Source: Bacteroidota bacterium (GTDB taxonomy: Bacteria > Bacteroidota > Bacteroidia > NS11-12g > UBA955). From it: a stretch of DNA of 64,000 nt. The stretch spans positions 62,001 to 126,000 of the forward strand of contig JAEUUL010000008.1 of assembly GCA_016787485.1 (NCBI GenBank), read 5' to 3'. The first letter of the stretch is position 1. The number at the start of each line of letters is the position of its first letter. Positions 4,717-64,000 of this stretch are shown here, in pieces. Both the position numbers and the translations under genes were made by a program. Under the pieces are notes generated by a model. That model had not been told where the DNA came from and did not search any database. It saw only the letters and a program-made list of their open reading frames with translations.

Positions 4717-4884
4717 CCAGGAGGCTGCAAATTCAGCGTATAGAGCATTCATACAAGGCCGCGAATTTCGGGATACCGGTACATAAAAATGCTGTATTCG
4801 TCCAATTTTAAGGCAAGGATTTGTCTTTATCCTGTCAATTCCCAAATTAAACGAATTGTAAATGCGCTGAGGGAAAAGGGGTTG

Positions 4885-4892: not shown

Positions 4893-4904
4893 AATCCTAA
4901 TCGC

Positions 4905-6677: not shown

Positions 6678-6742
6678 CAAAAGGTCTAACAACTCTGGCG
6701 AGAAAAGGTTTTTCAGGCTTTTCGACGAACGGTTGAAAACTT

Positions 6743-6772
6743 TGGAAACTTTTTTCACACTCAAAGTTTCCA
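6743..6772. promoter_or_regulatory. Candidate operator of the TetR-family regulator
   Basis: A perfect inverted repeat, TGGAAACTTT (6743-6752) and AAAGTTTCCA (6763-6772), has a 10-base spacer. It lies about 65-95 bases before the TetR gene and just upstream of a TAnnTTcG box, where a bound dimer could block transcription. Autoregulation of the efflux operon is inferred from position alone. Confidence 0.5.
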
Positions 6773-6787
6773 TTTCGGATTTTGTAT

Positions 6788-6795
6788 TAATTTCG
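6788..6795 (+). promoter_or_regulatory. Possible -7 box of the efflux operon
   Basis: TAATTTCG matches TAnnTTTG at seven of eight positions. It lies 42 bases before the TetR start, with the inverted repeat at 6743-6772 reaching into its -33 region. Confidence 0.35.
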
Positions 6796-6837
6796 CGGCC
6801 GGTTATCGGGGGTTTAGTCAAGACCCGGTATTAAAAG

Positions 6838-7458: not shown

Positions 7459-7465
7459 TTCAACG

Positions 7466-8821: not shown

Positions 8822-8844
8822 TAACCACAAAGAAAAAACACCCA

Positions 8845-9981: not shown

Positions 9982-10002
9982 ACCGAAAAACTGAGCAAAC
10001 CC

Positions 10003-48403: not shown

Positions 48404-49880
48404 ATTGTCCCTGCCCGGTTTTTTCCAGCCGGTACCAGGTAAAGGTCTGTGTTGTTCTGCCCTGAATGGGTATGGCTTTCAGTCCGGCCGGGAGCTTTTT
48501 GAACAACAGGCTGTCATTGTCTGTGATTACGCCTCTTGCACCCTGTGCATAAAACCGGGTAAAAAGCTCTCCCGCTTCGTCTTCATGGTACCATGGGAAT
48601 CCTTTGGCGTGCAGATAGTAAAAGTTCACACACCCCGTCTTGTCCGGACCTACGATCCACCGGACAGAAGGATCACTGTACTTTTTATAGGTATCTCCCG
48701 GAGTGGTTAAAAACTCCAAGGAAATGCGTGAACCTTCCGGACTCCAGTTGTCATGCATGCGAAACCAGGCCCATGCGGGTGCCAGCCACAGCCATAAAAC
48801 CAGCCAGGCGGCCCTGGTCTGAGCCAGATACCCGGCACCTTTGCCCACCATATAGGCGAACAATGGCATAAAAACCAATGCGTAATACCCGTGGTGCCAG
48901 AATTGGTACTGAACCAACAGATAAAATACAGCGCAAAGAATCGCATAAACTTTCCAGTCACCCCATTGCCTGCGGCCCGGCCAAATTGCAGGGATGGCAA
49001 ACAGGAGCAAGGGCAGAAATGCATACCCAACAAAGGTTTCCGGAATATCTGATATCACCGTTTTGCCGAGAATAAATGCCGCTTCTTCCAGGTTGCGGGC
49101 ATGGCGCATGGCATGAACAAATTCATGCAGTTGATACTTTGCAGTAAGTACTCCGGCAAACGCATACCATCCCAGAGTTGCCCCACCGGCCAGGGCTGCA
49201 AGTACAAACCCCTGCAGCAGCATTTTGGGCTGTTTCCAGTTTTTTTGCCGTAAAAACCCCAGCATCAGCGGGAAGCCAGCCATTAAAAACTGCATTTTAA
49301 CGGCACCGGCCAGAGCCATACAGGCGGCAGTCGCCAACAGGCTGCCCCAGTTCTGTTTTTTCAACCAATGTATGCCAAATCCCCAGCCCCATAGCATGGC
49401 CGCCAAACTCAGCATATCCGGCACTGCATTGATGCTTTGGTAATAGGTTTCAGGGATAAAGGCAATGGCTGCTCCGGTAAGTGCGGCCTGCCATTCCGGT
49501 AACTGATACAGCCTGGCAAGGCGCACCATACCTGTCACAGCCAACGCAAGAAACAACCAGCAAATCCAGCGATGCAGACTTTCACTGTATCCAAATATTT
49601 TGTAGCCGGCAGCAAATAACCAGGATTGCGCCGGAAACTCCGGACCCGTTATTCCGGGGGTGTTGAACCGTTTGTCAATTCTCGGTTTCAGGATATTCAT
49701 ATCCTCCTCGTAATAGTTGCGGGCCAACGCCAGGGTATTGCATTGCCTCCAAACATGATGTCCGGTGGCCGGCATTTGCATGTAAGGCAAATGGGTACAG
49801 AGACTGAGAAACAATATAACCGGCACCGCCCAGCGGTTTCCCAGCCAGCCAATGGTCTTTTGCACCGCTTTTTCTACCAT
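48402..49880 (-). CDS. GT-C-type membrane glycosyltransferase-like protein
   Basis: A 492-residue protein with about ten membrane helices. The first long loop has the PMT/ArnT-like layout after THLPYMQMPATGHHVWRQCN. A soluble C-terminal part (from about 400, VRWIVGPDKTGCVNFYYLHAKG) probably lies in the periplasm. The family transfers sugars from lipid carriers, but donor and acceptor here are unknown. The start is set at ATG 49880, overlapping the upstream stop by seven bases; the longer open frame runs through the neighbouring gene and adds no homologous sequence. Confidence 0.72.
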   Translation of the reverse strand: MVEKAVQKTIGWLGNRWAVPVILFLSLCTHLPYMQMPATGHHVWRQCNTLALARNYYEEDMNILKPRIDKRFNTPGITGPEFPAQSWLFAAGYKIFGYSESLHRWICWLFLALAVTGMVRLARLYQLPEWQAALTGAAIAFIPETYYQSINAVPDMLSLAAMLWGWGFGIHWLKKQNWGSLLATAACMALAGAVKMQFLMAGFPLMLGFLRQKNWKQPKMLLQGFVLAALAGGATLGWYAFAGVLTAKYQLHEFVHAMRHARNLEEAAFILGKTVISDIPETFVGYAFLPLLLFAIPAIWPGRRQWGDWKVYAILCAVFYLLVQYQFWHHGYYALVFMPLFAYMVGKGAGYLAQTRAAWLVLWLWLAPAWAWFRMHDNWSPEGSRISLEFLTTPGDTYKKYSDPSVRWIVGPDKTGCVNFYYLHAKGFPWYHEDEAGELFTRFYAQGARGVITDNDSLLFKKLPAGLKAIPIQGRTTQTFTWYRLEKTGQGQ

Positions 49881-50329
49881 GTATGGTCTATAATGATTTT
49901 GTGTGCGGTTCCCACTTTGCGCGTAATCAGTGAAAAATAGCCCGATGGCGTATCTGCGTGGCGGTAGAGTTTCCAGGTACCTGCAATATGGCCGGTTTCC
50001 ATGCCTTCGTCCAGAAACTCCACTTTCTGCAAACCGAACTCCAACCGACCCATTGAATCTTTTGTGGGATAGTGTTTTCTGTAAGAATCCAATGTAGCCT
50101 GCCAACCATAACGCACTCCTTTTCTGGTGATGAATTGCATGCCGGTATCGTTGTGATATCCCTGCATAAACCCTTCAATGTCTCCACGGTTCCATGCAGC
50201 CTGCTGGGTAAGAATCAGGCGGCGGAGTGAGTCCGTATGTATTTGTGATTTTTCCGCATGATTTGCAGGTTGGGTCTGGCAGGAGATTGCCAAAAGAACA
50301 GTCAGGATACAAGACAGAAGGTTTTTCAT
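49874..50329 (-). CDS. NTF2-like (DUF4440) lipoprotein
   Basis: A 151-residue protein with a lipobox-like signal (LLAISC, Cys17) and a SnoaL/DUF4440-like fold: ILTQQAAWNRGDIEGFMQGY at the N-terminus and HIAGTWKLYRHADTPSGYF toward the end. Members of this fold often bind small ligands; this one has no assigned reaction. It overlaps the PorT-like gene stop by four bases. Confidence 0.82.
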   Translation of the reverse strand: MKNLLSCILTVLLAISCQTQPANHAEKSQIHTDSLRRLILTQQAAWNRGDIEGFMQGYHNDTGMQFITRKGVRYGWQATLDSYRKHYPTKDSMGRLEFGLQKVEFLDEGMETGHIAGTWKLYRHADTPSGYFSLITRKVGTAHKIIIDHTW

Positions 50330-50952
50330 CTGGGTTCAGCAGACAATGCGTATTTAAGGCCTATACTTATTACGTTGTGATATACGCCGGTTGGATTAAA
50401 CACATTGCCCCCGTTGCGGTCGCTGCGGATATTGGACAGACTGTATTGGGCTTCACCCTGTGCGATGAAGCGCGAACTGAGTTTATACCCGGCTGTAAAA
50501 CAGCCCAGTATACCCACCGTGCGTAAATTGTCTTTTACATGCAGCACAAATCCCTCTTTGTCTGTGGCTTTAAGGAGATAAGTAGTGCGGATTCCGGGTC
50601 CGAAATTCCACTTCCCTTTGTACTTGATAAGAAAAACCGGAATGTCCAGCATCTGAAAATCCAGATGAAAGGAAGCCGCGGCAGCATTATCCGGGTCGTA
50701 AGGCCTGCGACTTCCGCGCACACTATAGGAAATTCCCGCCTCATATGACCATGATTTACCCAAACCCTGCCCGCTGATGAATCCGAAACTGTAGCCAAAC
50801 TTATGATATCCCTTTGCCTGGTCTCCGTCTATCTGGCAAAAAAGGGCTGACAGGTTGGCCCGGCTGAAGAACTCTCCCTTTCCCGCCTGTCCGGACAATG
50901 GAAAAGCGCTGAGCAAAACACAAACAAAGATATACAGGGAGAAATGCCTCAT
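50326..50952 (-). CDS. PorT-like outer-membrane beta-barrel protein
   Basis: A 208-residue protein with a signal peptide (FVCVLLSAFPLSGQ) and alternating hydrophobic strands: FGYSFGFISGQGLGKSWSYEAGISYS, FHLDFQMLDIPVFLIKYKG, and RFIAQGEAQYSLSNIRSD. The central LDIP element is typical of the PorT/outer-membrane-beta-barrel family of Bacteroidota. Assignment to PorT itself (a T9SS part) would need a search. It is first in an operon with the lipoprotein and GT-C genes. ATG 50952 is preferred because the signal peptide follows it. Confidence 0.75.
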   Translation of the reverse strand: MRHFSLYIFVCVLLSAFPLSGQAGKGEFFSRANLSALFCQIDGDQAKGYHKFGYSFGFISGQGLGKSWSYEAGISYSVRGSRRPYDPDNAAAASFHLDFQMLDIPVFLIKYKGKWNFGPGIRTTYLLKATDKEGFVLHVKDNLRTVGILGCFTAGYKLSSRFIAQGEAQYSLSNIRSDRNGGNVFNPTGVYHNVISIGLKYALSAEPR

Positions 50953-50990
50953 AAATGGTTGAAATTCGCAGCAAAATAACACATTCGATC

Positions 50991-52052
50991 ATGCAGGTGC
51001 AAACAATCATTGCCGGGGCCGGGCTCGCCGGTTGCAGTCTGGCACTGGAACTGCACAGCCGCGGACACAGAGTTTTTCTGGCAGACAATCAGGATTCCGG
51101 CAGCAGCAGCCGCGTGGCAGCAGGTCTGGTTAATCCCATCGTGCCCAAAGGGGTAAAAAAAACCTGGATGTGTGACACATTTTTCCCCGGAATAAGAGAC
51201 TGGTACGCCCGTTGGGATTTTCTAGAGGGTCAGCCCTTTTTTCAGTCAGCCCCGTTGTGGCAAATCCATAAATCCTACGGTGAGTATACAGAGTGGCGTC
51301 TTAGCGCAGAAAATCCGGAAATGGAGGGATATCTCTTATCGGGTGAACCTCACAACCACCCGGGATTCAGCAACGATTATGGTTCAACACTTGTGTACCA
51401 TGCCGGCCGGCTGAATACCCTTGCCTTTTGCAATGCGGTATGGTCCTGGTTTTCGTCTCTCGGACAAACCAAAGCTCAATCGTTCAATTACGATGAAATA
51501 ATTGTGGACAATGACTCTGTGCAATTGTGGGGAGTGCGTGCTGATCGGCTGGTATTTTGTGATGGTGCCTCCGGAATGAACAATCCCTGGTTCTCATATC
51601 TTCCCTGGCGCCCGAGTGCTGGTGATATTCTCCGGGTTCGCACGGAAGGAATGAGCAGCCTCTCCGACAGGGCCATTTACCGGCACAGGCATTGGCTGGT
51701 GCCCGACGGAAAGGGTGACTGGCTGGCAGGCGGCAGTTTCCATCCTGATAACACGGACAGACATCCAAATCATGAGGATGCCGAAGAGATACTTACATCA
51801 TTGCGCGGATGGATACATCATCCTGTGCACCTTCTGCAGCACCTGCGGGGTATCAGGCCATCTGTTCAGGACCGTCGGCCGTTTATCGGCAGGCATCCGG
51901 CAAATGCATCTGTCTGGATTTTCAATGGCCTTGGCAGCAAAGGCAGCAGTCTGGTAACCTGGCTGGCACCGGTTCTTGCCGATGCCATAACAGTGAATGC
52001 TGCATTGCCAGCTGAAGTGGATATCAACCGATATAGATATCCGGGCGTGTGA
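50991..52052 (+). CDS. FAD-dependent oxidoreductase (DAO family)
   Basis: A 353-residue enzyme. The dinucleotide-binding motif GAGLAGCSLALELHSRGHRV is at residues 9-28, followed by SSRVAAGLVNPIVPKG, close to the FAD domain of MnmC-like oxidoreductases. The C-terminus (NGLGSKGSSLVTWLAPVLAD) closes the FAD site. A substrate such as an amine or amino acid is likely but unknown; no methyltransferase half is attached. The start is ATG 50991, because the longer frame adds 12 residues before the flavin fold. Its 3' end overlaps the opposing regulator gene by 29 bases. Confidence 0.82.
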   Translation: MQVQTIIAGAGLAGCSLALELHSRGHRVFLADNQDSGSSSRVAAGLVNPIVPKGVKKTWMCDTFFPGIRDWYARWDFLEGQPFFQSAPLWQIHKSYGEYTEWRLSAENPEMEGYLLSGEPHNHPGFSNDYGSTLVYHAGRLNTLAFCNAVWSWFSSLGQTKAQSFNYDEIIVDNDSVQLWGVRADRLVFCDGASGMNNPWFSYLPWRPSAGDILRVRTEGMSSLSDRAIYRHRHWLVPDGKGDWLAGGSFHPDNTDRHPNHEDAEEILTSLRGWIHHPVHLLQHLRGIRPSVQDRRPFIGRHPANASVWIFNGLGSKGSSLVTWLAPVLADAITVNAALPAEVDINRYRYPGV

Positions 52053-52968
52053 TGGTTTGAATCAAATCATCGGGAGAGGCCACAACCTGAAAACCAGGCG
52101 GGAGCCTTAATTCCTTGTTTCGAAGTACCTGACTGCCGGTAAGCAATACCGGTGTCTCGGGAAAATTACGGTGAAGGGTTTGAATATATACCTGCACCGG
52201 AATGGCAGGGTTGTTTACGGTAAATGCGGTAAAAATTTCATCGGGTTTGTGCAACTGCATGATTTTCTGCAAATCTTCCAATGGTATGCTTACCCCCAGA
52301 TAAATGACCCTCTGGCCACGACTGCGCAAAATGTACCAGGCAAAAAGCAAACTGATGTCGTGATTTTCTCCTGAGGGTACAAACAAAAGGTATCGCTTGT
52401 TGCCGGAATTCGGAGGGTGCGGCAGCTGATCTATAGCCACATACAGGCGCTGCCTGATCAGATTGGTGATGAAATGCTCGTGGGCAACATGGATTGTGCC
52501 GGAAACCCACAAAATCCCAACATGCGACATAAACGGGAAAACAATACGGGCAATTGTTTCTTCCAGTCCCAGCTTCAGGATATTGATGGAAAGGGTTTTG
52601 TTGAATTCTCTCTCATCAAACTGCAACATAGCCCCGGTAAGTGCCTGTACCTGACTGTCGTACCGGCTGCTGGTCTCGCTGATACTCAGGGTCATCCGTT
52701 GTATTTCCTCCCGACTCATCCGGGCTATCTGACTTATTTTGTAGCCATGTGAGTTCAGAATACTCACATTCATGAGCAGCCGCACATCCTCTTCTTCGTA
52801 GTACCTGATATTGGTATCCGTTCTTTTGGGTTGAAGCAAACCATACCTTTGCTCCCACATACGCAGGGTAAATGCCTTGATTCCGGTTACGTTTTCTACA
52901 TCCTTGATGAAATACTTCTCCCGGTAATCCCGTTTGGTTTTTTTCCCATCTTCAGACAATTTTGGCAT
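52024..52968 (-). CDS. MerR-type regulator with B12-binding light-sensor domain (CarH/LitR-like)
   Basis: A 314-residue regulator. Residues about 18-90 form a MerR helix-turn-helix (YFIKDVENVTGIKAFTLRMW, EQRYGLL). A helical bundle (about 100-180) contains W154 and E164-H165, an exact Wx9EH motif that caps adenosylcobalamin in CarH. The B12-binding fold follows, with His203 in SGENHDIS as the probable lower cobalt ligand, and ends near 310. By analogy the tetramer represses in the dark and dissociates in light. The last G of the usual ExHxxG is Ser. It is divergent from the TIGR01777/photolyase genes with only 25 bases between start codons. Confidence 0.88.
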   Translation of the reverse strand: MPKLSEDGKKTKRDYREKYFIKDVENVTGIKAFTLRMWEQRYGLLQPKRTDTNIRYYEEEDVRLLMNVSILNSHGYKISQIARMSREEIQRMTLSISETSSRYDSQVQALTGAMLQFDEREFNKTLSINILKLGLEETIARIVFPFMSHVGILWVSGTIHVAHEHFITNLIRQRLYVAIDQLPHPPNSGNKRYLLFVPSGENHDISLLFAWYILRSRGQRVIYLGVSIPLEDLQKIMQLHKPDEIFTAFTVNNPAIPVQVYIQTLHRNFPETPVLLTGSQVLRNKELRLPPGFQVVASPDDLIQTITRPDIYIG

Positions 52969-52993
52969 TTCGCTTGTTAGTTCTGTTTAGCAA

Positions 52994-53908
52994 ATGAAAG
53001 TATTAATCACCGGTGGTTCCGGACTCGTTGGCAGGGCACTGTGTGACCTCCTTTCCCGGTCCGGAATTCCATTCCATTCCCTCACTTCCCACAAAGAAAA
53101 AGGAAATCCTGACCATGGACGGTATTACTGGGACTGGAAAAAAGGGATTTTAGATGAACGTGCACTTACAGGGGTCGACTGTGTCATTCATCTGGCAGGA
53201 GCAAACATCGGGAATAAGCGATGGAGTAAATCCTACAAAGAAGAAATTCTGCTCAGCCGCACCAAATCCCTGCAGTTCCTCTTTCAGCGGTTTAAGGAAA
53301 CAGGCCACAGTCCTGCTACTTTGATTTCGGCCGCGGCCATTGGTATTTATCCAGACCCGGGCAACGGACTCATGGATGAAAACCACCCTGCAGGTTCTGG
53401 TTTTTTGGCCGATGTATGCCGTCAATGGGAATCGGCAACGCTAGAATGGAAGCAGACAGGAACAAGGGTGGTCATACTGCGCACAGGTATTGTCCTCAGC
53501 AACAAAGGCGGTCTGCTGCCAGTGATGAAAAAAACCCTTCCTCTGCGCGTTGTCCCCACCACTGGCAGTAAGGGAAACAACCTGGGCTGGATACATATTC
53601 AGGACCTGGCAGCTTTGTACATGTATGCACTGCAAAACACGAACATGGAGGGTGCATACAATGCCGTTGCTCCGTCGTGCACAACCCAGTTAGAAATGGC
53701 GCGGGGGATTGCTGAAGCTGCTGGTATAAGGGCTTTTCATCCGAATGTGCCTGCATTTGTCCTGAAATGGGTGCTCGGGGAACGTGCCATATTGCCCCTT
53801 ACCCACCAAATGGTGCAGCCCGCCAAAACAATTGCCACCGGATTTGTGTATCAATTCAATGAACTTCGTACAGCCCTTTCTCACCTTGCCAGCTCACCAG
53901 AAGTGTAA
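52994..53908 (+). CDS. TIGR01777 family NAD(P)-dependent epimerase-like protein
   Basis: A 304-residue short-chain dehydrogenase/epimerase-type protein. The Rossmann motif ITGGSGLVGRALCDLL is at residues 5-20, followed by HLAGANIGNKRWSKSYKEEI, which marks the TIGR01777/YfcH group, and a C-terminal DUF1731-like segment (VLKWVLGERAILPL). No reaction is established. It is often linked to photolyase genes, as here, where photolyase overlaps its last 50 bases. Light control by the divergent CarH-type regulator is likely. Confidence 0.9.
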   Translation: MKVLITGGSGLVGRALCDLLSRSGIPFHSLTSHKEKGNPDHGRYYWDWKKGILDERALTGVDCVIHLAGANIGNKRWSKSYKEEILLSRTKSLQFLFQRFKETGHSPATLISAAAIGIYPDPGNGLMDENHPAGSGFLADVCRQWESATLEWKQTGTRVVILRTGIVLSNKGGLLPVMKKTLPLRVVPTTGSKGNNLGWIHIQDLAALYMYALQNTNMEGAYNAVAPSCTTQLEMARGIAEAAGIRAFHPNVPAFVLKWVLGERAILPLTHQMVQPAKTIATGFVYQFNELRTALSHLASSPEV

Positions 53909-55199
53909 CATTTTCTGGTTCCGGCGGGATTTACGCCTTGAAGACAACCATGGTTTGTGGGAATGTCTCCGGGCTGGATTGCCCGTGCTTCCCCTTTTCA
54001 TTTTTGATACGGAAATCCTAGGTAAGCTCGAAAATCCAAAAGACCGTCGGGTTCAGTTCATCCATCAGGAAATTCTCAGGTTAAAAACCGAACTCCGCGC
54101 GGCTGGCTCAGATTTGCTCGTTTTGCACGGCAATCCACATGAGATTTGGCCCACTTTGCTGGCATCCTGTCAGGCAAACGCCATATACACAAACAGAGAC
54201 TATGAGCCCGCTGCCATCCAGAGAGATGACACCACCGCAAAAACAGCAGCTGGTCTTGGCGTTGCCTTTCACAGTTTCAAAGACCAGGTCATCTTCGAAA
54301 CCCATGAGGTGGTGAAAGATGACGGGACACCATATACCGTATACACACCTTACTCAAAAAAATGGAAGAGTGTGCTTCAGGAATCACAATTGGAGCCCTA
54401 TAACAGTGCCGGACTTAAAGCAGAATTTATAACCGGGGTGCAATTTCCTGTGCCCACTCTTGAGGAAATGGGTTTTCAGGCTACCGCTTTTGTGTATCCT
54501 CAAGCCAGATTGGATAAGAATACGCTTGCACACTATGCTTCAGACCGGGATTATCCCTGGAAACCCGGCACTACCCGTGTGAGTCTGGCTCTCAGATTCG
54601 GTACCCTGTCTGTACGGGAATTGTACCGCATCGGGTTTCAAAACAGCGAAAAATGGGTAAATGAGCTCATCTGGAGAGAGTTTTATATGCAAATCCTGTT
54701 TCATTTCCCGTATGTGGTTGGTTCCTGTTTCAGGCCGGAGTACAACCGCATCGTCTGGAGAAACAACGAGGCTGAGTTTGAAGCATGGTGCAATGGCAAT
54801 ACAGGCTATCCCATAGTAGACGCAGGTATGCGTGAGTTGAAGCAGACGGGGTATATGCACAACAGGGTGAGGATGATCACTGCGAGTTTTCTTACCAAGC
54901 ACCTGCTCATAGACTGGCGTTGGGGTGAAGCCTGGTTTGCGCAGCATCTGCTTGACTTTGAGCTCAGCAGTAACAATGGTGGCTGGCAGTGGGCTGCAGG
55001 TTGTGGTGTGGATGCTGCTCCCTATTTCCGCATATTCAACCCTTATCTTCAAACATTAAAGTTCGATCCCAATCTCACCTATATCAGGCGTTGGGTAGCA
55101 GAATTTGACAGCTTAAAGTACTCCAAACCCCTGGTAGATCACGATTTTGCCCGAAAAAGATGCCTGCAGGTGTATCAGGCAGCCCTTCAAAAACCCTGA
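53859..55199 (+). CDS. phrB: Cryptochrome/photolyase family protein
   Basis: A 446-residue flavoprotein. The N-terminal antenna domain begins CNIFWFRRDLRLEDNHGLWE. The catalytic FAD domain shows WVNELIWREFYMQ, GYMHNRVRMITASFLTKHL and LSSNNGGWQWAAG with DAAPYFRIFNP, the usual photolyase pattern for repairing cyclobutane pyrimidine dimers in blue light. The start at ATG 53859 overlaps the upstream gene by 50 bases; TTG 53886 would shorten this and leave a more usual N-terminus. The gene is the second of the putative light-induced pair. Confidence 0.93.
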   Translation: MNFVQPFLTLPAHQKCNIFWFRRDLRLEDNHGLWECLRAGLPVLPLFIFDTEILGKLENPKDRRVQFIHQEILRLKTELRAAGSDLLVLHGNPHEIWPTLLASCQANAIYTNRDYEPAAIQRDDTTAKTAAGLGVAFHSFKDQVIFETHEVVKDDGTPYTVYTPYSKKWKSVLQESQLEPYNSAGLKAEFITGVQFPVPTLEEMGFQATAFVYPQARLDKNTLAHYASDRDYPWKPGTTRVSLALRFGTLSVRELYRIGFQNSEKWVNELIWREFYMQILFHFPYVVGSCFRPEYNRIVWRNNEAEFEAWCNGNTGYPIVDAGMRELKQTGYMHNRVRMITASFLTKHLLIDWRWGEAWFAQHLLDFELSSNNGGWQWAAGCGVDAAPYFRIFNPYLQTLKFDPNLTYIRRWVAEFDSLKYSKPLVDHDFARKRCLQVYQAALQKP

Positions 55200-55235
55200 C
55201 CCCCCCAAAAATGGCATTTGGTAAATTCAAAATCG

Positions 55236-55249
55236 GATTTTGCAAAATC
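55236..55249. promoter_or_regulatory. Perfect 14-bp palindrome upstream of the peptide gene
   Basis: GATTTTGCAAAATC is its own reverse complement. It lies 26 bases before the TTG of the peptide promoter, a place suited to an activator or repressor dimer. No dedicated regulator gene is adjacent. Confidence 0.45.
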
Positions 55250-55274
55250 AAACGGCCATTTGGAACATTTCCTG

Positions 55275-55305
55275 TTGCATAGCCGGAAAATCGTGTCTAA
55301 CATTG
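55275..55305 (+). promoter_or_regulatory. Promoter of the DP-rich peptide gene
   Basis: TTG and TAACATTG (one mismatch to TAnnTTTG) are 20 bases apart. The leader to the ATG at 55330 would be about 18 bases. Confidence 0.5.
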
Positions 55306-55329
55306 TATCACCAAATTACAAAAACCACT

Positions 55330-55638
55330 ATGAGCAACGACAATCTCGATCCAAACAAAAAGTCACTGAGTGACTTCACCAATGACGCAGTAAGCGGTTC
55401 CAATGTTAAAGGCGGAGACGGCGGGGATATTCCTGTAGATCCACTGTCTGGCGCAACAGAACTTCCTGCTGAAGGCTGGAACGGAGATGGTCCTGGTCCT
55501 TTCGCTGATCCCATTATCGGAAACGGCGGAATCAATGCCAACGACCCCTTCAATCCAAACCCCACCGATCCCCTGGGACCAAGCGATGATCCGCATGTTG
55601 GCCCCGATCCGCTGGGTCGTCCGCCTTTCCGTCCCTGA
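55330..55638 (+). CDS. GG-leader, DP-rich secreted peptide precursor (candidate)
   Basis: A 102-residue acidic protein without Cys. Residues 9-29 (KKSLSDFTNDAVSGSNVKGG when counted from Lys10) look like a C39-processed leader: hydrophobic and polar helix-forming residues ending in Val-Lys-Gly-Gly, with a second Gly-Gly at 31-32. The remaining 70 residues are Asp, Pro, Gly and Asn rich with six Asp-Pro units (DPLSG, DPIIG, DPFNP, DPLGP, DPHVG, DPLGR). It has its own promoter and terminator and lies 142 bases before a C39-peptidase exporter gene. It is probably the exported substrate. Bacteriocin, adhesion or signalling roles are all open; no RiPP-modifying enzyme is nearby. Confidence 0.7.
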   Translation: MSNDNLDPNKKSLSDFTNDAVSGSNVKGGDGGDIPVDPLSGATELPAEGWNGDGPGPFADPIIGNGGINANDPFNPNPTDPLGPSDDPHVGPDPLGRPPFRP

Positions 55639-55663
55639 TGTGTAAACAACAGTGATTCAAAAG

Positions 55664-55692
55664 AAACCCGGAGCATTGACTCCGGGTTTTTT
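55664..55692 (+). terminator. Terminator after the DP-rich peptide gene
   Basis: AAACCCGGA and TCCGGGTTT form a 9-bp stem with an 8-base loop and a T run, 25 bases after the stop codon. It would uncouple the small gene from the exporter, allowing a higher level of peptide than transporter. Confidence 0.85.
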
Positions 55693-55725
55693 ATGCCTTT
55701 TACAGCCGCATTTCTGTATCAAATG

Positions 55726-55756
55726 TTTGAGTTTGTCAGAATCCTGTGTAATTTGC
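55726..55756 (+). promoter_or_regulatory. Possible promoter of the exporter operon
   Basis: TTTG followed 19 bases later by TAATTTGC, a near-match to TAnnTTTG. It is placed 24 bases before the TTG start of the exporter gene, after the peptide terminator. Confidence 0.4.
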
Positions 55757-55780
55757 CCGAATTAATAACGCCTGACTGCC

Positions 55781-58018
55781 TTGAAACTGCGAGCCCTATT
55801 TCAGCGTAATCAAAGTATTTTCTTTCCCTCCATCCGGCAACCGGATACCATGGACTGTGGTCCCACTTCCCTGCGTATCATTGCCAAGCATTACGGAAAA
55901 AACTACTCCCTGCCCCACCTGCGCGAACTGAGTTATACCACCCGCGAAGGTTCTTCCCTTTCTCAACTGGGAAGAGCTGCCGAAGCCATCGGGTTCCGTT
56001 CATTGGGTGCCAAAATCAGTTTTCAGCAACTTCGGGATGAAGCACCACTGCCCTGTATAGCGCACTGGAACCAGAACCACTATATAGTGGTTTACAAGGT
56101 AAAGAAAGACAGGGTGTATGTGTCAGACCCCGGACTTGGATTGGTTAATTACTCGAAAGAGGAGTTTATCGAGCACTGGATTGGTGCCGGTGCAAGCACC
56201 AGTTCCAAAGATGGCATTGTGATGCTGCTGGAACCCACCCCTGAATTCTATCAGGCGGAGGAAGAAGCAAAACCGGAAAAACAGGGATTCAGCCTTTTGT
56301 GGCCCTATATGCGACCCCACCGCAGGTACCTGGTGCAGGTTTTTGTAGGTTTGCTTGCGGGCAGTGTTATGTCCCTCATTTTCCCATTCCTTACCCAGAG
56401 TGTAGTGGATATAGGGATACGCAACAAAGACATTCATTTTGTATACCTCATCCTCTTTGCGCAGATATTCCTCTTCTTTGGCCGCAGTGCCATAGAACTC
56501 ATTCGGGGTTGGCTGCTTCTGCACATGAGTGCCAAAATCAACATATCCCTCGTTACCGATTTCTTCTCAAAACTCATGCGGCTTCCCATCTCCTATTTCG
56601 ATTCCAAAATGAACGGGGATATCATCCAGCGCATCGGAGACCACCGCCGGATACAGCATTTGCTTACAGGAAGCTCTCTCAGCATTCTGTTCTCCATGAT
56701 CAATATCATCATCTTCGGGTTGATTCTCATCTTTTATGACTTTACCATTTTTGTCGTGTTTTTCACAGGCAGTATCGCATACATTATCTGGGTTGCTTTC
56801 TTCCTGAAACAACGTGCAGTACTCGATTATAAGCGGTTTAGTCTGGAAGCCACCAACCACGAAAAGGTGCTGGAACTCATCAATGGAATGCAGGAAACCA
56901 AGTTGCACAATGCCGAAAGACAAAAACGCTGGGGATGGGAGCATGTACAGGCCAAATTGTTTAAGGCCAGTCTGAAACAGATGGCGGTAAACCAGACACA
57001 GTCTCTGGGAGCCAGGGTAATCAACGAAACCAAAAATATTTTTATCTCATTCCTTACAGCAAGTCTTGTAATCAAAGGAGATATCACCCTTGGTGTGATG
57101 CTTTCCATTTCCTATATCATCGGACAATTAAACGGTCCCATTGCAGAAATTGTGTCTTTCATGCACGACTTGCAGGATGCCCGCCTCAGTCTGGAACGCA
57201 TATCGGAAATCCACAACCGTGAAGACGAAGAACCAAAAGGCACAGAATTGATTCGTGAATTACCTGAAAACGGGGATATCGTTCTGGAAAAGGTCTCTTT
57301 TCAATATTCCGGACCGGAAAGTCACTGGGTTTTGCGCAACCTCAACCTTACCATACCTTCCGGGAAAATCACAGCCATCGTGGGCGGCAGCGGCAGTGGT
57401 AAAACCACCCTGCTAAAAATGCTGCTGAAATTCTACAATCCGGTGCGGGGCAACATGTTGTTCGATGCGTTCAACCTGAACAAAATAAGCCAGGAAGTAT
57501 GGCGCGACCGCTGCGGCGTGGTTATGCAGGAAGGCTTCATATACAATGACACAATTGCCCGCAACATTGCTGTGGGCCACGAAGAAATAGACCAACAGAG
57601 GCTGATCGATGCAGTGGAAGTGGCTAACATCCGCGAGTTTATCGAGAGTCTGCCACTGGCCTACAACACTAAAATAGGAGCCAGCGGCGGGGGTATCAGC
57701 GGCGGACAGAAACAGCGCATTCTCATTGCACGTGCCGTGTATAAGAATCCCAAGTGCATATTTTTTGACGAAGCTACCTCAGCCCTCGATTCCAAAAATG
57801 AACGCATCATTATGGAAAACCTGGACAAATGGTTTCACGGCCGCACCGTGGTTATCATTGCACACCGGCTTAGTACAGTGCGAAATGCAGATCAGATAGT
57901 GGTGCTGGATCAGGGCAGAATCATTGAACAGGGCACACATGAAGAACTCATTGCCATGAACGGAGCCTATTACGGACTGGTAAAAAATCAACTGGAACTG
58001 GAAAAACTGGATAAATAA
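55781..58018 (+). CDS. Peptidase-containing ABC exporter (C39 peptidase, membrane, ATPase)
   Basis: A 745-residue PCAT protein. Residues about 10-150 are an intact C39 peptidase: Gln20, Cys26 (MDCGPTSLRI), His100 (NQNHYIVV) and Asp116. Five to six membrane helices follow (about 175-460). The ATPase has GGSGSGKTTLLKML, ISGGQKQRILIAR and CIFFDEATSALD. Such proteins cut a leader after Gly-Gly and export the peptide. The start must be TTG 55781, since the only in-frame stretch upstream ends at a stop five codons earlier. It is eight bases before the HlyD-type gene. The likely substrate is the peptide encoded just upstream. Confidence 0.93.
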   Translation: MKLRALFQRNQSIFFPSIRQPDTMDCGPTSLRIIAKHYGKNYSLPHLRELSYTTREGSSLSQLGRAAEAIGFRSLGAKISFQQLRDEAPLPCIAHWNQNHYIVVYKVKKDRVYVSDPGLGLVNYSKEEFIEHWIGAGASTSSKDGIVMLLEPTPEFYQAEEEAKPEKQGFSLLWPYMRPHRRYLVQVFVGLLAGSVMSLIFPFLTQSVVDIGIRNKDIHFVYLILFAQIFLFFGRSAIELIRGWLLLHMSAKINISLVTDFFSKLMRLPISYFDSKMNGDIIQRIGDHRRIQHLLTGSSLSILFSMINIIIFGLILIFYDFTIFVVFFTGSIAYIIWVAFFLKQRAVLDYKRFSLEATNHEKVLELINGMQETKLHNAERQKRWGWEHVQAKLFKASLKQMAVNQTQSLGARVINETKNIFISFLTASLVIKGDITLGVMLSISYIIGQLNGPIAEIVSFMHDLQDARLSLERISEIHNREDEEPKGTELIRELPENGDIVLEKVSFQYSGPESHWVLRNLNLTIPSGKITAIVGGSGSGKTTLLKMLLKFYNPVRGNMLFDAFNLNKISQEVWRDRCGVVMQEGFIYNDTIARNIAVGHEEIDQQRLIDAVEVANIREFIESLPLAYNTKIGASGGGISGGQKQRILIARAVYKNPKCIFFDEATSALDSKNERIIMENLDKWFHGRTVVIIAHRLSTVRNADQIVVLDQGRIIEQGTHEELIAMNGAYYGLVKNQLELEKLDK

Positions 58019-58026
58019 AGACAGGG

Positions 58027-59322
58027 ATGGCAAACGAAAAAGACGAACTGAACCTGAGAAGTGAAGAAATCCAGGACATCATGCAGAAAACGCCTGCATG
58101 GATTTTGCGCTGGGGCATTTCTTCCATATTTATTCTGCTCATACTGGGCTTGTTTCTCACATATCTTATCGAATACCCGGATATCATCAAGGGTCCGGTA
58201 AAAATAACGACCACAGACCCACCGGTGAAAATTGTGTGCCAGGTTGCCGGAAACATTACCCACATCTATGTAAAGGATGGCGACTCCGTGCAGGCAGGCA
58301 CTGTTCTTGCCGAAATTGAAAATCCGGTTTCCGGCGAAGCGGTAAGTTATTTAAAAAGCTACCTGGAATCGCTGGACAAGGCCGTGGGTGCCGGCAGTCC
58401 TGTTTTGCCACTGCCTGATACCTCCGGTCTTGCCTTTGGCGACTTGCGGGCTACCCTCAACGAACTCACCCGTGAAATAGTAACCCTGAACCTGCGCAAA
58501 AGCACCGGGATAGACGACCGCGATATAAGCACACTTATGGCACGCATCCGCCACGAACAGGAATTGCTCAACATCAACGACAAAATGCTGAGCATGGCAC
58601 AGAAAGACCTTGAAAATGCCCGAATAAAATACGAATCGGATAAGGCATTGTATGAGCAGGGTGTGTTATCGAAAACAGACTTTCTGGCTCAGGAAAACAC
58701 CTACCGCAACCGTCAACTGCAGGTAGAACAAATGCAGCAAAGCAGGCTGAACAACTCCATTGCACTCAGCGGACTGCAGCAGCAATACCAGCAATCGGAC
58801 TTTAACCGGCTCAGTAAAGACCGCACAGGCTACGAAGCAGTAAAACTGCAAAGCGAAGCACTTCGCAGCTTTCTGTTTGGCTGGCAGCAACGCTACAGAC
58901 TTACCTCACCCAAAAACGGCCGTGTGAGTTTTATGGTGCACCTGCAACCCCGCATGTTTGTAAAACCCGGTGAAGAACTTATTGCCATACTTGCACCCAA
59001 AGGGGAATATCTGGGGCTTGCATCTGTGCCGGTTGCAGGTATAGGCAAAGTAAAAACCGGACAAAAAGTGCTTATTCTGCTGGAAAGTTTCCCTTACTAC
59101 GAATATGGAATGGTAGAAGGAAAAGTAAAAACAGTGGCCGAGCTCCCAAATGGAAATGAATACCGTGTGGAAGTAGCATTGCCAAATGGCATGATGAGCA
59201 CTCACAATGAGGTATTGAAATTTAGTCCTGAAATGCTTGGCACGGTGGAAATAGTGACCGAAGACAAACGGGTTATTGAAAGGATTTTCAGTTCACTGGT
59301 TAAAATTTTCAAAAAACGATGA
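58027..59322 (+). CDS. HlyD-family periplasmic adaptor of the peptide exporter
   Basis: A 431-residue adaptor. A short cytoplasmic tail and one membrane helix (about 27-48, LRWGISSIFILLILGLFLTY) lead to the barrel-sandwich half GNITHIYVKDGDSVQAGTVLAEIE. A long coiled-coil hairpin (about 140-275) follows, then the second half-motif and barrel. It should connect the ABC exporter to an outer-membrane duct. No TolC-like gene is in this operon, so the duct would be supplied from elsewhere, perhaps the one at 7466. Confidence 0.92.
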   Translation: MANEKDELNLRSEEIQDIMQKTPAWILRWGISSIFILLILGLFLTYLIEYPDIIKGPVKITTTDPPVKIVCQVAGNITHIYVKDGDSVQAGTVLAEIENPVSGEAVSYLKSYLESLDKAVGAGSPVLPLPDTSGLAFGDLRATLNELTREIVTLNLRKSTGIDDRDISTLMARIRHEQELLNINDKMLSMAQKDLENARIKYESDKALYEQGVLSKTDFLAQENTYRNRQLQVEQMQQSRLNNSIALSGLQQQYQQSDFNRLSKDRTGYEAVKLQSEALRSFLFGWQQRYRLTSPKNGRVSFMVHLQPRMFVKPGEELIAILAPKGEYLGLASVPVAGIGKVKTGQKVLILLESFPYYEYGMVEGKVKTVAELPNGNEYRVEVALPNGMMSTHNEVLKFSPEMLGTVEIVTEDKRVIERIFSSLVKIFKKR

Positions 59323-60110
59323 TCAACAAAATTGCACTGCTTATTGATTTTACCGGCGTTTGTCAGCTGGCGATGGAACACACAGCTCTGCTCGCCCGCC
59401 AAAGCCTGTCGCAGGTTACCTTGCTGCATATTGCCGCAGCAGATCAGCAAGCCAATGACAAGGAAATCAAAAATCAAATCCGTGAATTTGCCCAATCCCT
59501 GGAAAATGAAGGCATCCCTTTTGCCATCCATGTGGATTATGGAGATTTTTTTGACATCATCGGTGAAAGTGTGCGCAAACAGAAAGCGGATTTGCTGATT
59601 GTGGGAACGCATGGCATCAAAGGAATCAAGGCGAATTTCCAGAGTTCAGCCATTCTGCGCCTCATGGGTTTGATAGATACTCCGGCACTTGTGGTGCAGG
59701 GACACTCTCAAACCCCACTGGAAGGTTATCTGAACATTTTGATTCCACTGGTTGGCAAAGTAGAAAATGCAGACCTCATTGATCCGGTTTCCCGTTTTGC
59801 GTCCGTATTTAAATCCCATGTGCAGATTCTGTCTTTTTTCCATAAAGAAAATGAAACCGAACGCAGGGAAGATACACGCCGCATAGAATCCGGATTGCTG
59901 GCAAAAAATGTAAAAGTGACCACACATTTAGACGAAACCAGTGTGTATACCAGCAACTATTACCGCAGCATCATCGAATTTGCAGATATAGAAGAAGCCA
60001 ACCTCATTGTGCTTGCGGTACATGAGTCAGGAGATTCGGGTTATTTCAATGAAACCGACGAGGAAAACCTGCTGCTGAACCGGTTGGGAACAGCTGTACT
60101 TTGCTTGTGA
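59319..60110 (+). CDS. Double-domain universal stress protein
   Basis: A 263-residue cytoplasmic protein with two Usp folds. The first (about 1-140) has a strand-helix start (KIALLIDFTGVCQLAMEHTALLAR) and an ATP-loop-like segment LLIVGTHGIKGIKANFQSSA in which the usual last Gly is Ser. The second (about 145-263) is more divergent and ends in NLIVLAVHESGDSGYFNETD. Its ATG overlaps the adaptor stop (ATGA). Coupling of a Usp protein to a peptide exporter is unusual; an energy- or stress-linked control of export is possible but unproven. Confidence 0.85.
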   Translation: MINKIALLIDFTGVCQLAMEHTALLARQSLSQVTLLHIAAADQQANDKEIKNQIREFAQSLENEGIPFAIHVDYGDFFDIIGESVRKQKADLLIVGTHGIKGIKANFQSSAILRLMGLIDTPALVVQGHSQTPLEGYLNILIPLVGKVENADLIDPVSRFASVFKSHVQILSFFHKENETERREDTRRIESGLLAKNVKVTTHLDETSVYTSNYYRSIIEFADIEEANLIVLAVHESGDSGYFNETDEENLLLNRLGTAVLCL

Positions 60111-60184
60111 TAGCTGTGAAATTTTATTGAGAATTTTCAAATCAATTGCTGATTTGTTTTTCGAACACTTTATTTCTTTACACG

Positions 60185-61120
60185 ATGTTTAAATACCCCA
60201 TTCTGCTTTTATTCATTTTCGCGCATGCGCAACTTTTCAGTCAATCTGCCGCAGATTATTTTAACAAAGCTAAAGCCAGTGCTGAATCAGGAAATAAAGA
60301 AGCAGCCCTGGAACAAATCAATGCGGCAATCACCCTGGATCCTGAAAATCTGGTGTAAAAACAATTCAAGTCGGGTTGTTATTTTTCACGGGGGGATTTC
60401 AAATCTGCGTTATCGCAAGTTAAACAACTGGAGAATGAATACCCGGACAGTAGTTCTGTAAACCAACTTCTGGCCAATTATTATGCTGCGTTACTGGATT
60501 ATGAACGTGCTATTGAGGAATACGAAAAAGCTATAGAAAAAGCAGAAACACCCAGATTAAAACACAATTACAATACATATCTGGCAGGATGCAAGTTGAG
60601 TTTGATGCAGTACCGCGAGGCCTATACGATTTTAAGCAAAGAGTATGCATATGACAGTTCCGATATGGATGCACTGAACAATATGGCACATGCATGCTCA
60701 CAGTTAAATATGCGGCAGGAATCGTTCAGAATTTTCATGCGGATGCTCACAATAGATTCCACCAGGCCTTTCGTATGGATTAGTTTGGGAATGTGGTATC
60801 AGGAAGGCAATGAGCACAACAATGCCATCCGTTGTTTTAACCGCTTGATTTCCATGTACCCCAATGACCCATACGGCTACAGCAACAGGGCAACGAGTGA
60901 ACTGGAATTGGGAGAAACCCGGAAAGCGTTGAAAGACATCAATCATTCCATTGAGTTAAAATCCACCAATGCGTATGCCTATTGGACCCGTGCAAAAGTG
61001 TGGCTAAAAAAAGGCAATCAGAAAAAAGCCTGCGAGGACTTAAATACTGCCGAAAAGCTGCGATTTACTGCACTGTATGGGAATAGCGTGCAGGAACTGA
61101 AAGAAAAACACTGCAAATAG
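60185..61120 (+). pseudogene. Secreted TPR protein broken by an in-frame TAA
   Basis: The frame begins at ATG 60185 with a signal peptide (LLLFIFAHAQLFSQ). It encodes a first TPR unit (AADYFNKAKASAESGNKEAA) and meets TAA at 60356-60358 after VITLDPENLV-like sequence. The same frame then stays open to 61120 with further TPR units (YERAIEEYEKAIEKAET, AIRCFNRLISMYPNDP, ALKDINHSIELKSTNAYAYW) and a proper end. Read through the stop, the product would be 311 residues. This is a nonsense mutation, a base-call error, or rarely read-through; no frameshift is needed. A downstream start (TTG 60596 or ATG 60605) could still yield the C-terminal TPRs in the cytoplasm. Confidence 0.72.
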
Positions 61121-61160
61121 TTTCTGCAAGCAAAGGAAAACGAAGCGAAACAATCACCAC

Positions 61161-61191
61161 TTGCCTTTAACCCTTGGCAGGCCTACCTTTG
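61161..61191 (+). promoter_or_regulatory. Promoter of prfB
   Basis: TTG and an exact TACCTTTG box are 20 bases apart; the box ends four bases before the prfB ATG, so the message is expected to be leaderless. Confidence 0.65.
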
Positions 61192-61195
61192 CAGC

Positions 61196-62300
61196 ATGAA
61201 TTCCGACCAGCATAAAGATATAAGGGGCCGTGTAGAAGCCCTGAGGAGGTACCTTTGACGTCGATAGAAAACTGGCTGAAATAGCCGACGAAGAGGAACA
61301 AACGCTGGACCCCTCCTTCTGGAACGACCCCAAAAAAGCAGAGGCACATCTCCGCAAAATCAAAGACAAAAAAGTTTGGACCGAGGCCTTTCAGGCTTGT
61401 GTAAAACAGCTGGAAGACCTGGATGTGCTGGTAGAATTTGCCGATGCCGGTGAAGCCACAGCCGATGAAGTAGACCAGCAATACAAGATGCTGGCCGAAT
61501 CTGTCGAAAACCTGGAGTTTAAAAACATGCTGCAGGATGAGGAAGACCACCTCGGTTGTGTGCTCGAAATCAACTCCGGTGCTGGTGGTACAGAAAGCTG
61601 CGACTGGGCAGAGATGCTCATGCGCATGTACATTATGTGGGCCGAAAAAAATGGTTTCAAAATCACTGAACTCGACCGTCAGGATGGCGATGTGGCCGGT
61701 ATCAAATCCGTAAGTCTGGAAATTGAAGGCCCGTTTGCCTTTGGTTACCTCAAGGGAGAAAACGGTGTACACCGCATGGTGCGCATTTCTCCGTTCGACA
61801 GCAACGCACGCCGGCACACCTCATTTGTAAGTGTATATGTTTACCCGCTGGTGGATGATACCATTGAAATAGAAATCAAACCCCAGGATGTGGAACTTCA
61901 TACCAGCCGAAGCGGTGGTGCAGGCGGACAGAATGTGAACAAGGTTGAAACCAAAGTTCAGCTCACCCATATTCCCACCGGAATCGTGGTGGTGTGCCAG
62001 GTAGACCGCAGTCAGCTGGGTAACCGTGAAAGGGCCATGCAAATGCTCAAAAGCCGGTTGTATGAACTTGAAATCCAGAAACGCAATGCCGCGCGTGCAG
62101 CCATAGAGGACAGCAAGATGAAAATCGAGTGGGGTTCCCAAATCCGCAACTACGTGTTTCACCCTTACAAATTGGTAAAAGACGTACGAACCGGTGAGGA
62201 AACCAGCAATGTCCAAAACGTAATGGATGGTGACCTCTGGCCCTTTATCAAAAGTTATCTGCTGGAAAGCAGCGGTGCTAAAAAAACCGCAGCAAAGTAA
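61196..62300 (+). CDS. prfB: Peptide chain release factor 2, with programmed +1 frameshift
   Basis: Release factor reading UAA and UGA. Twenty codons from ATG 61196 end at TGA 61256-61258. Skipping one base (reading GAC at 61257) opens the frame to 62300 and gives 367 residues, the normal length. The tail has the SPF codon-reading motif ([14 protein letters not shown]) and GGQ in [17 protein letters not shown], which catalyses peptide release. Low release factor 2 raises frameshifting at its own UGA, so the protein controls its own level. Without the frameshift only 20 residues are made. Confidence 0.95.
61244..61258 (+). promoter_or_regulatory. Programmed +1 frameshift site of prfB
   Basis: Codons read AGG AGG TAC CTT TGA, then C. 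A Shine-Dalgarno-like AGGAGG sits three bases before the slippery CTT, and the stop is UGA followed by C, all standard for this site. The usual stimulator is AGGGGG; here it is a full AGGAGG. Confidence 0.93.
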
Positions 62301-62370
62301 TTCCTGCCGTTTGTGAACTGATATCCGCCATTGGTGAATCAAAGTGATTTACCTGCGCGCTGACGGACTT

Positions 62371-62396
62371 GTTTTGGAGCATAATAAAACCAAAAC
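62371..62396 (+). promoter_or_regulatory. Small inverted repeat just before the LamG gene
   Basis: GTTTTGG (62371-62377) and CCAAAAC (62390-62396) flank 12 bases and touch the ATG at 62397. In RNA this could form a hairpin ending at the start codon; in DNA it could be an operator. Confidence 0.35.
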
Positions 62397-63311
62397 ATGA
62401 AAAAGATCAGTACATTTTTTTTAGTTGCAGTGCTGCTTGGAACTGCCATGGCGCAGGCCCCCCTGGCCTGCTACAGTTTCGATGGAAACTACAATGATGC
62501 CCTCAACGGCCGCCACCTGAGCAATACCACCACTACACTGGTACCTGGCCCCTGGGGTGGGGTTGACTCGGTTTGCCAGTTCAACGCTACCCTCTCCAGC
62601 ATCGTACGCCTGCCCAAAACGGCTGCCCTGAGGCCCGCCCTGCTCAGCATGAGTGTTTGGGTGAAACCCGAATCGACTGAACCCCAGTATATCATCTTTC
62701 AGAAAAACAGACAGGCTGCCAACCATGAAGGCTTTGTACTTGCATTCATCGACACCGCCTTTAAATTCATTAAACTCAGCCCCGATTCTGGCAAATACAG
62801 CAACTGCCAGTCGGGTAAAGTCGAATTAAACAACTGGTCTCATGTGGGCATGGTATTCACCGGAGACAGCATCCGGCTCTACGTAAACGCCGTGCGTGTA
62901 GCGGCTGATAAATCTGCATTTCCTATAGAATACGACACCACCAGCATGATTCTTGGCGGTTCAGGTGTCTCATTCAATCTGCCTTTTCACGGGGCTCTCA
63001 ACAATTTAAAAATCTACGACCGGGTGCTTACCCCTGCAGAAATCAGCACCGACTATTTTCAGCATCCCGGTTGCGTAACCGCAGGGATTGCCCGACAGAA
63101 TGCTGTTTCCAATGCCATAAATATGTTCCCAAATCCTGCCAGAGATTTCCTGCATTTGTCAGCACCATCTCATGTTGACATATACTCGGTAAATGGCAAA
63201 AAACTCTACAGTCAGAACCAAATTCAAACCGTACCAGTTCATCATCTGCCCCGTGGGCTTTGCTTCGTGCGCATCAATTCAGGCAAAGCAAGGTCCCTGA
63301 TTCTTGAATAG
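62397..63311 (+). CDS. LamG-domain protein with T9SS type A sorting signal
   Basis: A 304-residue secreted protein. The signal peptide ends near AMAQ. A LamG/concanavalin-like domain (about 22-215) shows LACYSFDGNYNDALNGRH, MSVWVKPESTEPQYIIFQ and LPFHGALNNLKIYDRVLTPAE. The last 70 residues are a type A T9SS sorting domain (MFPNPARDFLHL, VDIYSVNGKKLY, LPRGLCFVRI). So it is moved to the cell surface or released by T9SS and may bind carbohydrate. No T9SS machinery gene is close by. Confidence 0.9.
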   Translation: MKKISTFFLVAVLLGTAMAQAPLACYSFDGNYNDALNGRHLSNTTTTLVPGPWGGVDSVCQFNATLSSIVRLPKTAALRPALLSMSVWVKPESTEPQYIIFQKNRQAANHEGFVLAFIDTAFKFIKLSPDSGKYSNCQSGKVELNNWSHVGMVFTGDSIRLYVNAVRVAADKSAFPIEYDTTSMILGGSGVSFNLPFHGALNNLKIYDRVLTPAEISTDYFQHPGCVTAGIARQNAVSNAINMFPNPARDFLHLSAPSHVDIYSVNGKKLYSQNQIQTVPVHHLPRGLCFVRINSGKARSLILE

Positions 63312-63328
63312 GTCAGGGAAATTCTCCA

Positions 63329-63350
63329 TATTTGTTTGAACAAACAAATA
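63329..63350. promoter_or_regulatory. Inverted repeat overlapping the pirin promoter
   Basis: TATTTGTTTG (63329-63338) and CAAACAAATA (63341-63350) are exact complements around AA. The left arm contains the -33 TTTG, so a bound dimer would block polymerase. This is the clearest operator-like palindrome in the window; its regulator is not identified. Confidence 0.6.
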
Positions 63351-63365
63351 ATTGTACTAACTTCG
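63335..63365 (+). promoter_or_regulatory. Promoter of the pirin gene
   Basis: TTTG and TAACTTCG (one mismatch to TAnnTTTG) are 19 bases apart. The start codon lies four bases after the box, predicting a leaderless transcript. Confidence 0.55.
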
Positions 63366-63369
63366 TGGT

Positions 63370-64000
63370 ATGAGTAAGCAAGTACCGCGTCGCAATTTTC
63401 TGGGTAAACTGGGAGCCGCGCTTGCGGCTTCCGTAGCTTTGCCCCTCATCTCCGCCAAACGCATTCTGCCAACTGACGACGAACCTATGACTGAGCCATT
63501 GATTAAAAACACCAAACCCCTGGGATTTATGTGGGAAACCATAGACCCATTTCTGTTCTGTGTTCACCATGAAGATTTTTTCCCAAAGGGGAATGCTGCC
63601 ATGGGTCCGGATCCTGAGTTATTCAAAGGCCGCCACATGGGTGACGACTTTATCATTAAGGATGGTTTCCGTATGTACCACGGTCGCACGGTTCCCGGTT
63701 TTCCCGGTCACCCACACAGGGGGTTCGAAACCATTACCGTGGTGAGAAAAGGGCTGGTGGACCATGCCGACAGTCTGGGTGCTGCAGGCCGCTATGGAGA
63801 GGGCGATGTGCAATGGATGACCGCAGGCAAAGGCGTTCAGCACAGCGAAATGTTCCCGCTGATCCATACAGACAAAGAAAACACCATGGAACTGTTTCAG
63901 ATCTGGCTCAATCTGCCGGCCAAGGACAAAATGACGGAACCCCATTTCAAAATGTTGTGGGCTGATACCATTCCCCATTTTACGCATACCGACAACAACA
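63370..64000 (+). CDS. Pirin family protein with Tat signal, truncated by window edge
   Basis: The first 210 residues of a cupin-fold protein. [20 protein letters not shown] at residues 7-26 is a twin-arginine signal, so the product should be exported folded, which is unusual for pirins. Metal-ligand pairs are visible: [12 protein letters not shown] and VQHSEMF. Pirins bind iron and some act as quercetinases; the reaction here is not known. The palindrome over its promoter suggests tight control. The C-terminal cupin half lies beyond the window. Confidence 0.9.

Follow-up and report, generated by a model that had tools for sequence, protein, structure and literature searches.

A candidate Cys-free, Asp-Pro-rich peptide encoded upstream of a C39 peptidase-ABC exporter in a Bacteroidota genome, with no modifying enzyme beside it

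The forward strand of the window—the whole stretch of 64,000 nucleotides that was analysed—holds a candidate precursor of 102 residues, an intrinsic terminator, a C39 peptidase-ABC exporter, an HlyD-type adaptor and a universal stress protein (Usp), in that order. The candidate precursor gene (55330..55638, +) starts with ATG and encodes an acidic, Cys-free protein rich in Asp-Pro; position 55236, where the preliminary description had set the start of the locus, belongs to a longer reading from a TTG, while the ATG-started frame begins at 55330. A promoter-like sequence of the Bacteroidota type, TTG-N20-TAACATTG (55275..55305, +), is found 24 bases 5' of the ATG. Since this pattern is no commoner in the window than expected by chance (3 found vs 3.7 expected), it is position alone that speaks for this site. 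The precursor and the exporter lie on the same strand, separated by 142 bases, and between them is a strong intrinsic terminator with a 13-pair stem and a T tract (55661..55692, +), a feature absent from the preliminary description.

The genes flanking the locus encode an FAD oxidoreductase, a MerR regulator, an epimerase, a photolyase, a TPR protein, a peptide chain release factor and a lectin-like protein. As previously stated, no modifying enzyme adjoins the locus: none is encoded in the approximately 4 kb upstream or the 3 kb downstream, no radical SAM/SPASM maturase is found among the neighbouring genes, and no VKOR-type protein is present in positions 49001-64000 of the window. No immunity, receptor or outer-membrane channel gene was recognised near the locus, and an Rfam search of the window gave no match. 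The TPR gene downstream (60186-61120, +) consists of one frame that is open save for a single internal stop near 60356-60358, which may represent a pseudogene, recoding or an assembly error.

The exporter gene (55781..58018, +) starts with TTG and encodes a protein with Peptidase_C39, ABC_membrane and ABC_tran domains, that is, a peptidase-containing transporter (PCAT, or AMS) in which a C39 domain bearing the catalytic Gln, Cys, His and Asp is fused to ABC transmembrane and ATPase domains. The active-site residues reported earlier, Q20, C26, H100 and D116, are all intact, and they correspond to Gln21, Cys27, His101 and Asp117 of LahT (PMC6363468). Among its solved relatives are a bacteriocin transporter (4ry2), ComA and the LahT protease domain (6mpz). 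When compared at the columns conserved in at least 85% of 96 related exporters, the readable part of the C39 domain shows one departure, a Ser for Cys at residue 30; three further apparent departures at the N-terminus are residues omitted by the ATG-based gene model, and are present in the TTG-started reading. No other C39 domain was found in the genome, which measures 3.4 Mb.

The exporter gene is followed by that of the HlyD-type periplasmic adaptor (58027..59322, +), assigned by Pfam/NCBIfam in agreement with the preliminary description, and by the Usp gene (59319..60110, +). The Usp had been described as a double protein: Pfam recognises its first half, covering residues 1-126 only, and the remainder appears to form a second Usp half. 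The ATG of the Usp gene overlaps the stop codon of the HlyD gene (ATGA), so both probably belong to the same operon. No Usp gene was found near the other related exporters read.

The candidate precursor, MSNDNLDPNKKSLSDFTNDAVSGSNVKGG (leader) / DGGDIPVDPLSGATELPAEGWNGDGPGPFADPIIGNGGINANDPFNPNPTDPLGPSDDPHVGPDPLGRPPFRP (core), has a pI of 4.05, and it carries VKGG at residues 26-29 followed by six Asp-Pro units (seven in the whole protein), as had been noted. Its frame is coding-like, with 0.20 bits per codon, compared with 0.05-0.52 in 34 genes of the window, and the remaining five frames over the same region have negative codon scores. The putative exported core (55417..55635, +) comprises 73 residues (7.3 kDa), of which 17 are Pro, 10 are Asp and 13 (18%) are Gly, with few Ser/Thr and a net charge of about -10. 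The Asp-Pro units after VKGG exceed what composition would give (6 seen vs 2.3 expected, P = 0.009), and a motif DP[L/I]xG or DPLG, chosen post hoc, occurs at four of them (P = 2e-5 by shuffling). In five of the six the next residue is Leu, Ile or Phe (DPLSG, DPIIG, DPFNP, DPLGP and DPLGR), so that the core, with its DP[L/I/F] repeats, resembles a degenerate repeat. AlphaFold2 without an alignment obtained no structure for the core (pLDDT 53, pTM 0.12), which is probably disordered. A cationic proline-rich antimicrobial peptide can be rejected because of the charge of about -10.

Neither Pfam nor NCBIfam holds a match to the precursor. The proposal that homologues might share VKGG and the Asp-Pro repeats ahead of a C39 exporter found nothing to build on, with no homologue in 70 genomes of the family and no credible one among 395 genomes of the class. 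From the class, only two low-complexity matches emerged, both weak (E 0.003 and 0.01) and both rejected, one of them crossing four stop codons and the other lying inside a 3,686-codon frame.

The putative leader, residues 1-29 ending in VKGG (55330..55416, +), departs from the canonical pattern. On an ungapped profile of 106 leaders encoded near related exporters, the VKGG site scores -3.1, in about the lowest eighth of these neighbouring leaders, whose median is near 13 (most left-out ones score 5 to 25). Its fit comes mainly from positions -4 (Val) and -3 (Lys), while -7 (Gly), -12 (Asn) and -15 (Asp) are misfits. An alternative cut after Gly23-Ser24, where Val at -4 and Leu at -12 fit and position -7 is Asn, scores slightly above the VKGG site. 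Thus, although residue pairs of the type that ends such leaders (GG, GA or GS) occur at both places—VKGG at 26-29 and GS at 23-24—neither site has hydrophobic residues at all three of -4, -7 and -12. For the C39 peptidase of LahT, hydrophobic residues at -7 and -12 are critical for cleavage, and this enzyme is also able to cleave after Gly-Ser (PMC6363468). If a gap of two residues is allowed, the leader can be aligned with leaders of the LanB type, best with that of locus L130 (LNKEAITKLQEDQL--SNVKGG), and 3% of shuffled sequences align as well. The segment is plausibly a divergent double-glycine leader, judged from its residues. Of the original assignment as a GG-leader, the Gly-Gly itself and the fit at -4 and -3 stand; being non-canonical at -7 and -12, however, the leader offers weaker ground for that claim than had been held.

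A short leader profile built from the neighbours of related exporters was also run genome-wide. As a control, it recovered the precursors of genomes G362 and G245 as the top matches in their own genomes. Across the genome under study it gave no credible leader, with only noise (E = 2) within a 323-codon frame, and the candidate precursor itself was not picked either.

Modifying enzymes were also sought beyond the locus. LanB (PF04738) is absent genome-wide, with the positive controls detected. ATP-grasp RiPP ligases were found only in a separate microviridin locus on contig C26 (L141, G000:C26:33000-50000). There, a precursor of 227 residues (9733-10416, -) lies next to genes for MvdC- and MvdD-like ligases (8772-9707 and 7765-8775, -). 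The precursor combines one PLFAKFL leader with seven T-x-[K/Q]-x-P-S-D cores, contains no GG anywhere, and has no exporter beside its locus. Microviridin precursors carry up to five cores each according to a review, which also describes loci where a C39 transporter is followed by HlyD (PMC7823629); seven cores in one precursor may therefore be unusual.

Relatives of the exporter are absent, at E <= 1e-100, from the other 69 genomes of the family and, at 1e-150, from the remaining 107 of the order, while relatives at 1e-180 occur in 69 of 395 genomes of the class (the window's own counted), with identities of up to 64%. The exporter of one of these genomes, G444, is identical in sequence to that in the record of the Flavobacteriales bacterium UBA10426, so the class of the window includes Flavobacteriales. 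In the tree, the window exporter occupies a long branch of its own next to the LanB, grasp-with-spasm and VKOR exporters, and its exact placement is weakly supported. The neighbourhoods of 96 distinct full-length exporters, including that of the window, were surveyed over up to about 15 kb. Classed by means of checked seeds, they divide into VKOR/thioredoxin loci (24), loci with LanB (17), with grasp-with-spasm proteins (17) or with radical SAM (7), and 31 in which the stretch read shows no modifying enzyme, a class that includes contig ends and the window itself. Cys-free cores were found in 18 of 122 other leader-bearing peptides near related exporters. Hence, the statement that most described GG-leader precursors of Bacteroidota are Cys-rich or accompanied by enzymes holds for the present clade of exporters, although these counts indicate that exceptions to it are not rare.

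Several of the loci surveyed present features of their own. In L062 (G371), a single exporter and a VKOR gene are surrounded by an unusually large array of sixteen GG-leader peptide genes, mostly Cys-rich (304-9474, -). L079 (G206) encodes three tandem, nearly identical GG peptides of 47 residues (2759-3273, -), with the Cys-free, Pro/Glu-rich core DEEPLPEPYPSKGNGGNGST, on the strand opposite to a VKOR-type locus. In L098 (G242), a GG peptide (10443-10655, -) whose core contains the exact repeat QDVTSELASGGTTTDT twice adjoins a grasp ligase gene.

The layout of the window recurs in the family labelled f62. In all four genomes of this family examined (G245, G275, G376 and G397), an exporter with no modifying enzyme shares its strand with a GG peptide that is Cys-free and rich in Pro, Asp and Glu, as exemplified by those of L090, MKRIEFEVLTYDEMRLVRGG (leader) / EMDDKPKPPPPPEPPPDIFVPDPGDIWIPIPL (core), and L095, MKDLKKLNIELLNEIELKNVFGG (leader) / NPNDGSIPPDDGIDDDEGSPMQG (core). 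Three of the four (G245, G275 and G397) have the order peptide, terminator, C39 exporter and HlyD with canonical leaders; in L086 and L090 the terminator is placed between peptide and exporter as in the window, and a similar hairpin and T tract can be seen by eye in L084. In the fourth (G376, L095), a gene for a kinase/response regulator lies between peptide and exporter. Like the candidate precursor, these peptides have Cys-free cores rich in Pro, Asp and Glu, no modifying enzyme and, in the three genomes named, a terminator before the exporter. Unlike it, they have canonical leaders and cores of 23-32 residues, and their exporters, which form one clade with 100% SH-aLRT support, are 52-54% identical to that of the window. 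A common ancestry of the peptides was considered and rejected: they show no evident sequence similarity and the exporters fall in distant clades, so the likeness is architectural rather than homologous.

Among characterised systems, the locus can be compared with those for colicin V and the class II microcins. ColV is exported by a PCAT, an MFP and TolC (PMC10352776), and class II microcins are defined by a signal of 15-18 residues, a glycine content of 12-26% and a gene near a PCAT (PMC11494933). The window shares with them a small protein that would remain unmodified, a nearby C39-ABC exporter, an HlyD-like adaptor and an outer-membrane channel that would be encoded elsewhere; its PCAT neighbour fits the definition, as does the glycine content of the core, which falls within 12-26%. 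In contrast, the signal does not match, since the leader would have 24-29 residues and position -7 is not hydrophobic (nor is -12 at the VKGG site). In addition, the core is extremely rich in Pro and Asp, no immunity gene is recognised, and the phylum is different.

Within Bacteroidota, the bacteroidetocins (class IIf) are GG-leader peptides exported by a C39 transporter with no RiPP enzymes involved (PMC6671954), and the window resembles them in its phylum, GG-type precursor, C39 exporter and lack of a RiPP-modifying enzyme. However, their leaders of 15-16 residues, their cores of about 42-48 residues with two to four Cys, and their thiol oxidoreductase gene have no counterpart here, where the core is Cys-free and VKOR-type proteins are missing from the region given above. 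The grasp-with-spasm, class I lanthipeptide and VKOR loci of Bacteroidota share the exporter and HlyD families with the window, including the nearest exporters (about 57-64% identical), but modifying or disulfide-forming enzymes adjoin their exporters. The features of class I lanthipeptides are lacking, with no PF04738 in the genome and no Cys in the core, as are those of graspetides and microviridins: the candidate precursor has no adjacent ATP-grasp ligase, no PFFARFL-type leader motif and no T-x-K-x-P-S-D core.

Taken as a whole, the locus is read here, with somewhat better than even confidence, as an export module for an unmodified peptide in the fashion of colicin V and the class II microcins, in which a small acidic, Pro-rich protein is probably secreted with no chemical modification. 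We infer that the 102-residue protein is the substrate of the exporter, cut at one of the two sites and exported with an unmodified core. It would be made from its own short transcript, ending at the terminator; once the C39 domain had removed a leader of 29 (or 24) residues, a core of roughly 7 kDa would leave the cell through the ABC part, HlyD and an outer-membrane channel whose gene lies elsewhere. This reading is favoured by the order of precursor, terminator, PCAT and HlyD, by a sole C39 domain with an intact active site, by the lack of a better leader-bearing substrate genome-wide, by the recurrence of the enzyme-less layout in f62, by the absence of LanB in a search with working controls, and by the precedents of ColV and the bacteroidetocins. 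It is weakened by the non-canonical leader, by the failure of the leader profile to pick the precursor, by the lack of a homologue showing conservation of GG or DP, and by outer-membrane channel and immunity genes not being recognised nearby.

The same exporter tree lends itself to a different account, where a lanthipeptide or graspetide locus has lost its modifying enzymes and retains the exporter and a drifting precursor, with its former function possibly gone. An exporter standing by itself on a long branch among those of LanB, grasp-with-spasm and VKOR loci, a leader best aligned to a LanB-type leader and a locus present in only one of 108 genomes of the order would all fit such a remnant. 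It is nevertheless unlikely, given that the conserved positions of the exporter, the terminator and the operon are intact, that the precursor retains gene-like codon usage, that its Asp-Pro repeats are ordered beyond chance, and that its core lacks the Cys that lanthionine would need. Slightly more doubtful is the idea that the small protein is not a substrate and that the exporter serves another peptide, such as the multicore microviridin precursor on C26. The known pairing of microviridin loci with a C39 transporter and HlyD (PMC7823629), the lack of an exporter beside the microviridin locus of a genome with a single C39 exporter, and the atypical leader of the 102-residue protein make this worth weighing; but the microviridin precursor has no GG, which makes its export by a C39 exporter unlikely, the short leader profile found no other GG-leader peptide in the genome, and the 102-residue gene lies directly upstream of the exporter, as in three f62 genomes. 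Finally, the core might be modified in trans, for instance with Thr/Ser-Asp/Glu esters, by the pair of ATP-grasp ligases encoded in the microviridin locus, acting on a core that is rich in Asp and has few Ser/Thr. Microviridin ligases recognise a leader helix of the PFFARFL type, represented in this genome by the PLFAKFL of its own microviridin precursor. The 102-residue protein has neither this helix nor the corresponding core motif, so modification by these ligases, which adjoin a precursor of their own, is very improbable.

The secretion of an unmodified peptide, as originally proposed, thus retains an intact exporter, a candidate Cys-free, Asp/Pro-rich substrate and no adjacent enzyme in its favour, with the atypical leader as its weak point. 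The further suggestion of a new peptide class was too strong: comparable lone peptides exist in f62, about a third of the related exporters (31 of 96) are enzyme-less, and the lack of homologues together with the atypical leader leaves such a class not established. A broader view, entertained here as rather speculative, is that Bacteroidota repeatedly secrete a kind of peptide as yet without a name: Cys-free, Asp/Pro-rich and exported unmodified by lone C39 exporters. It would be represented by the window genome, the four f62 genomes and, in flavobacterial loci, further peptides of similar make, and its role would be something other than membrane-active killing, such as metal binding, surface adhesion or signalling. 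Cargo exported in this way is usually a bacteriocin-like or signalling peptide. Since no immunity or receptor gene was recognised, any single role for the peptide outside the cell can be proposed at best tentatively, well short of even confidence.

The exported peptides of Bacteroidota have been mined mainly through modifying enzymes or Cys-rich cores. Acidic, Pro-rich precursors with no enzyme, for which there is no NCBIfam or Pfam match, would be missed by such mining; of the related exporters, about one in three lacks a modifying enzyme within the stretch read. If exported, the peptide described here would test how far leader recognition by C39 peptidases can depart from the -4/-7/-12 rule.
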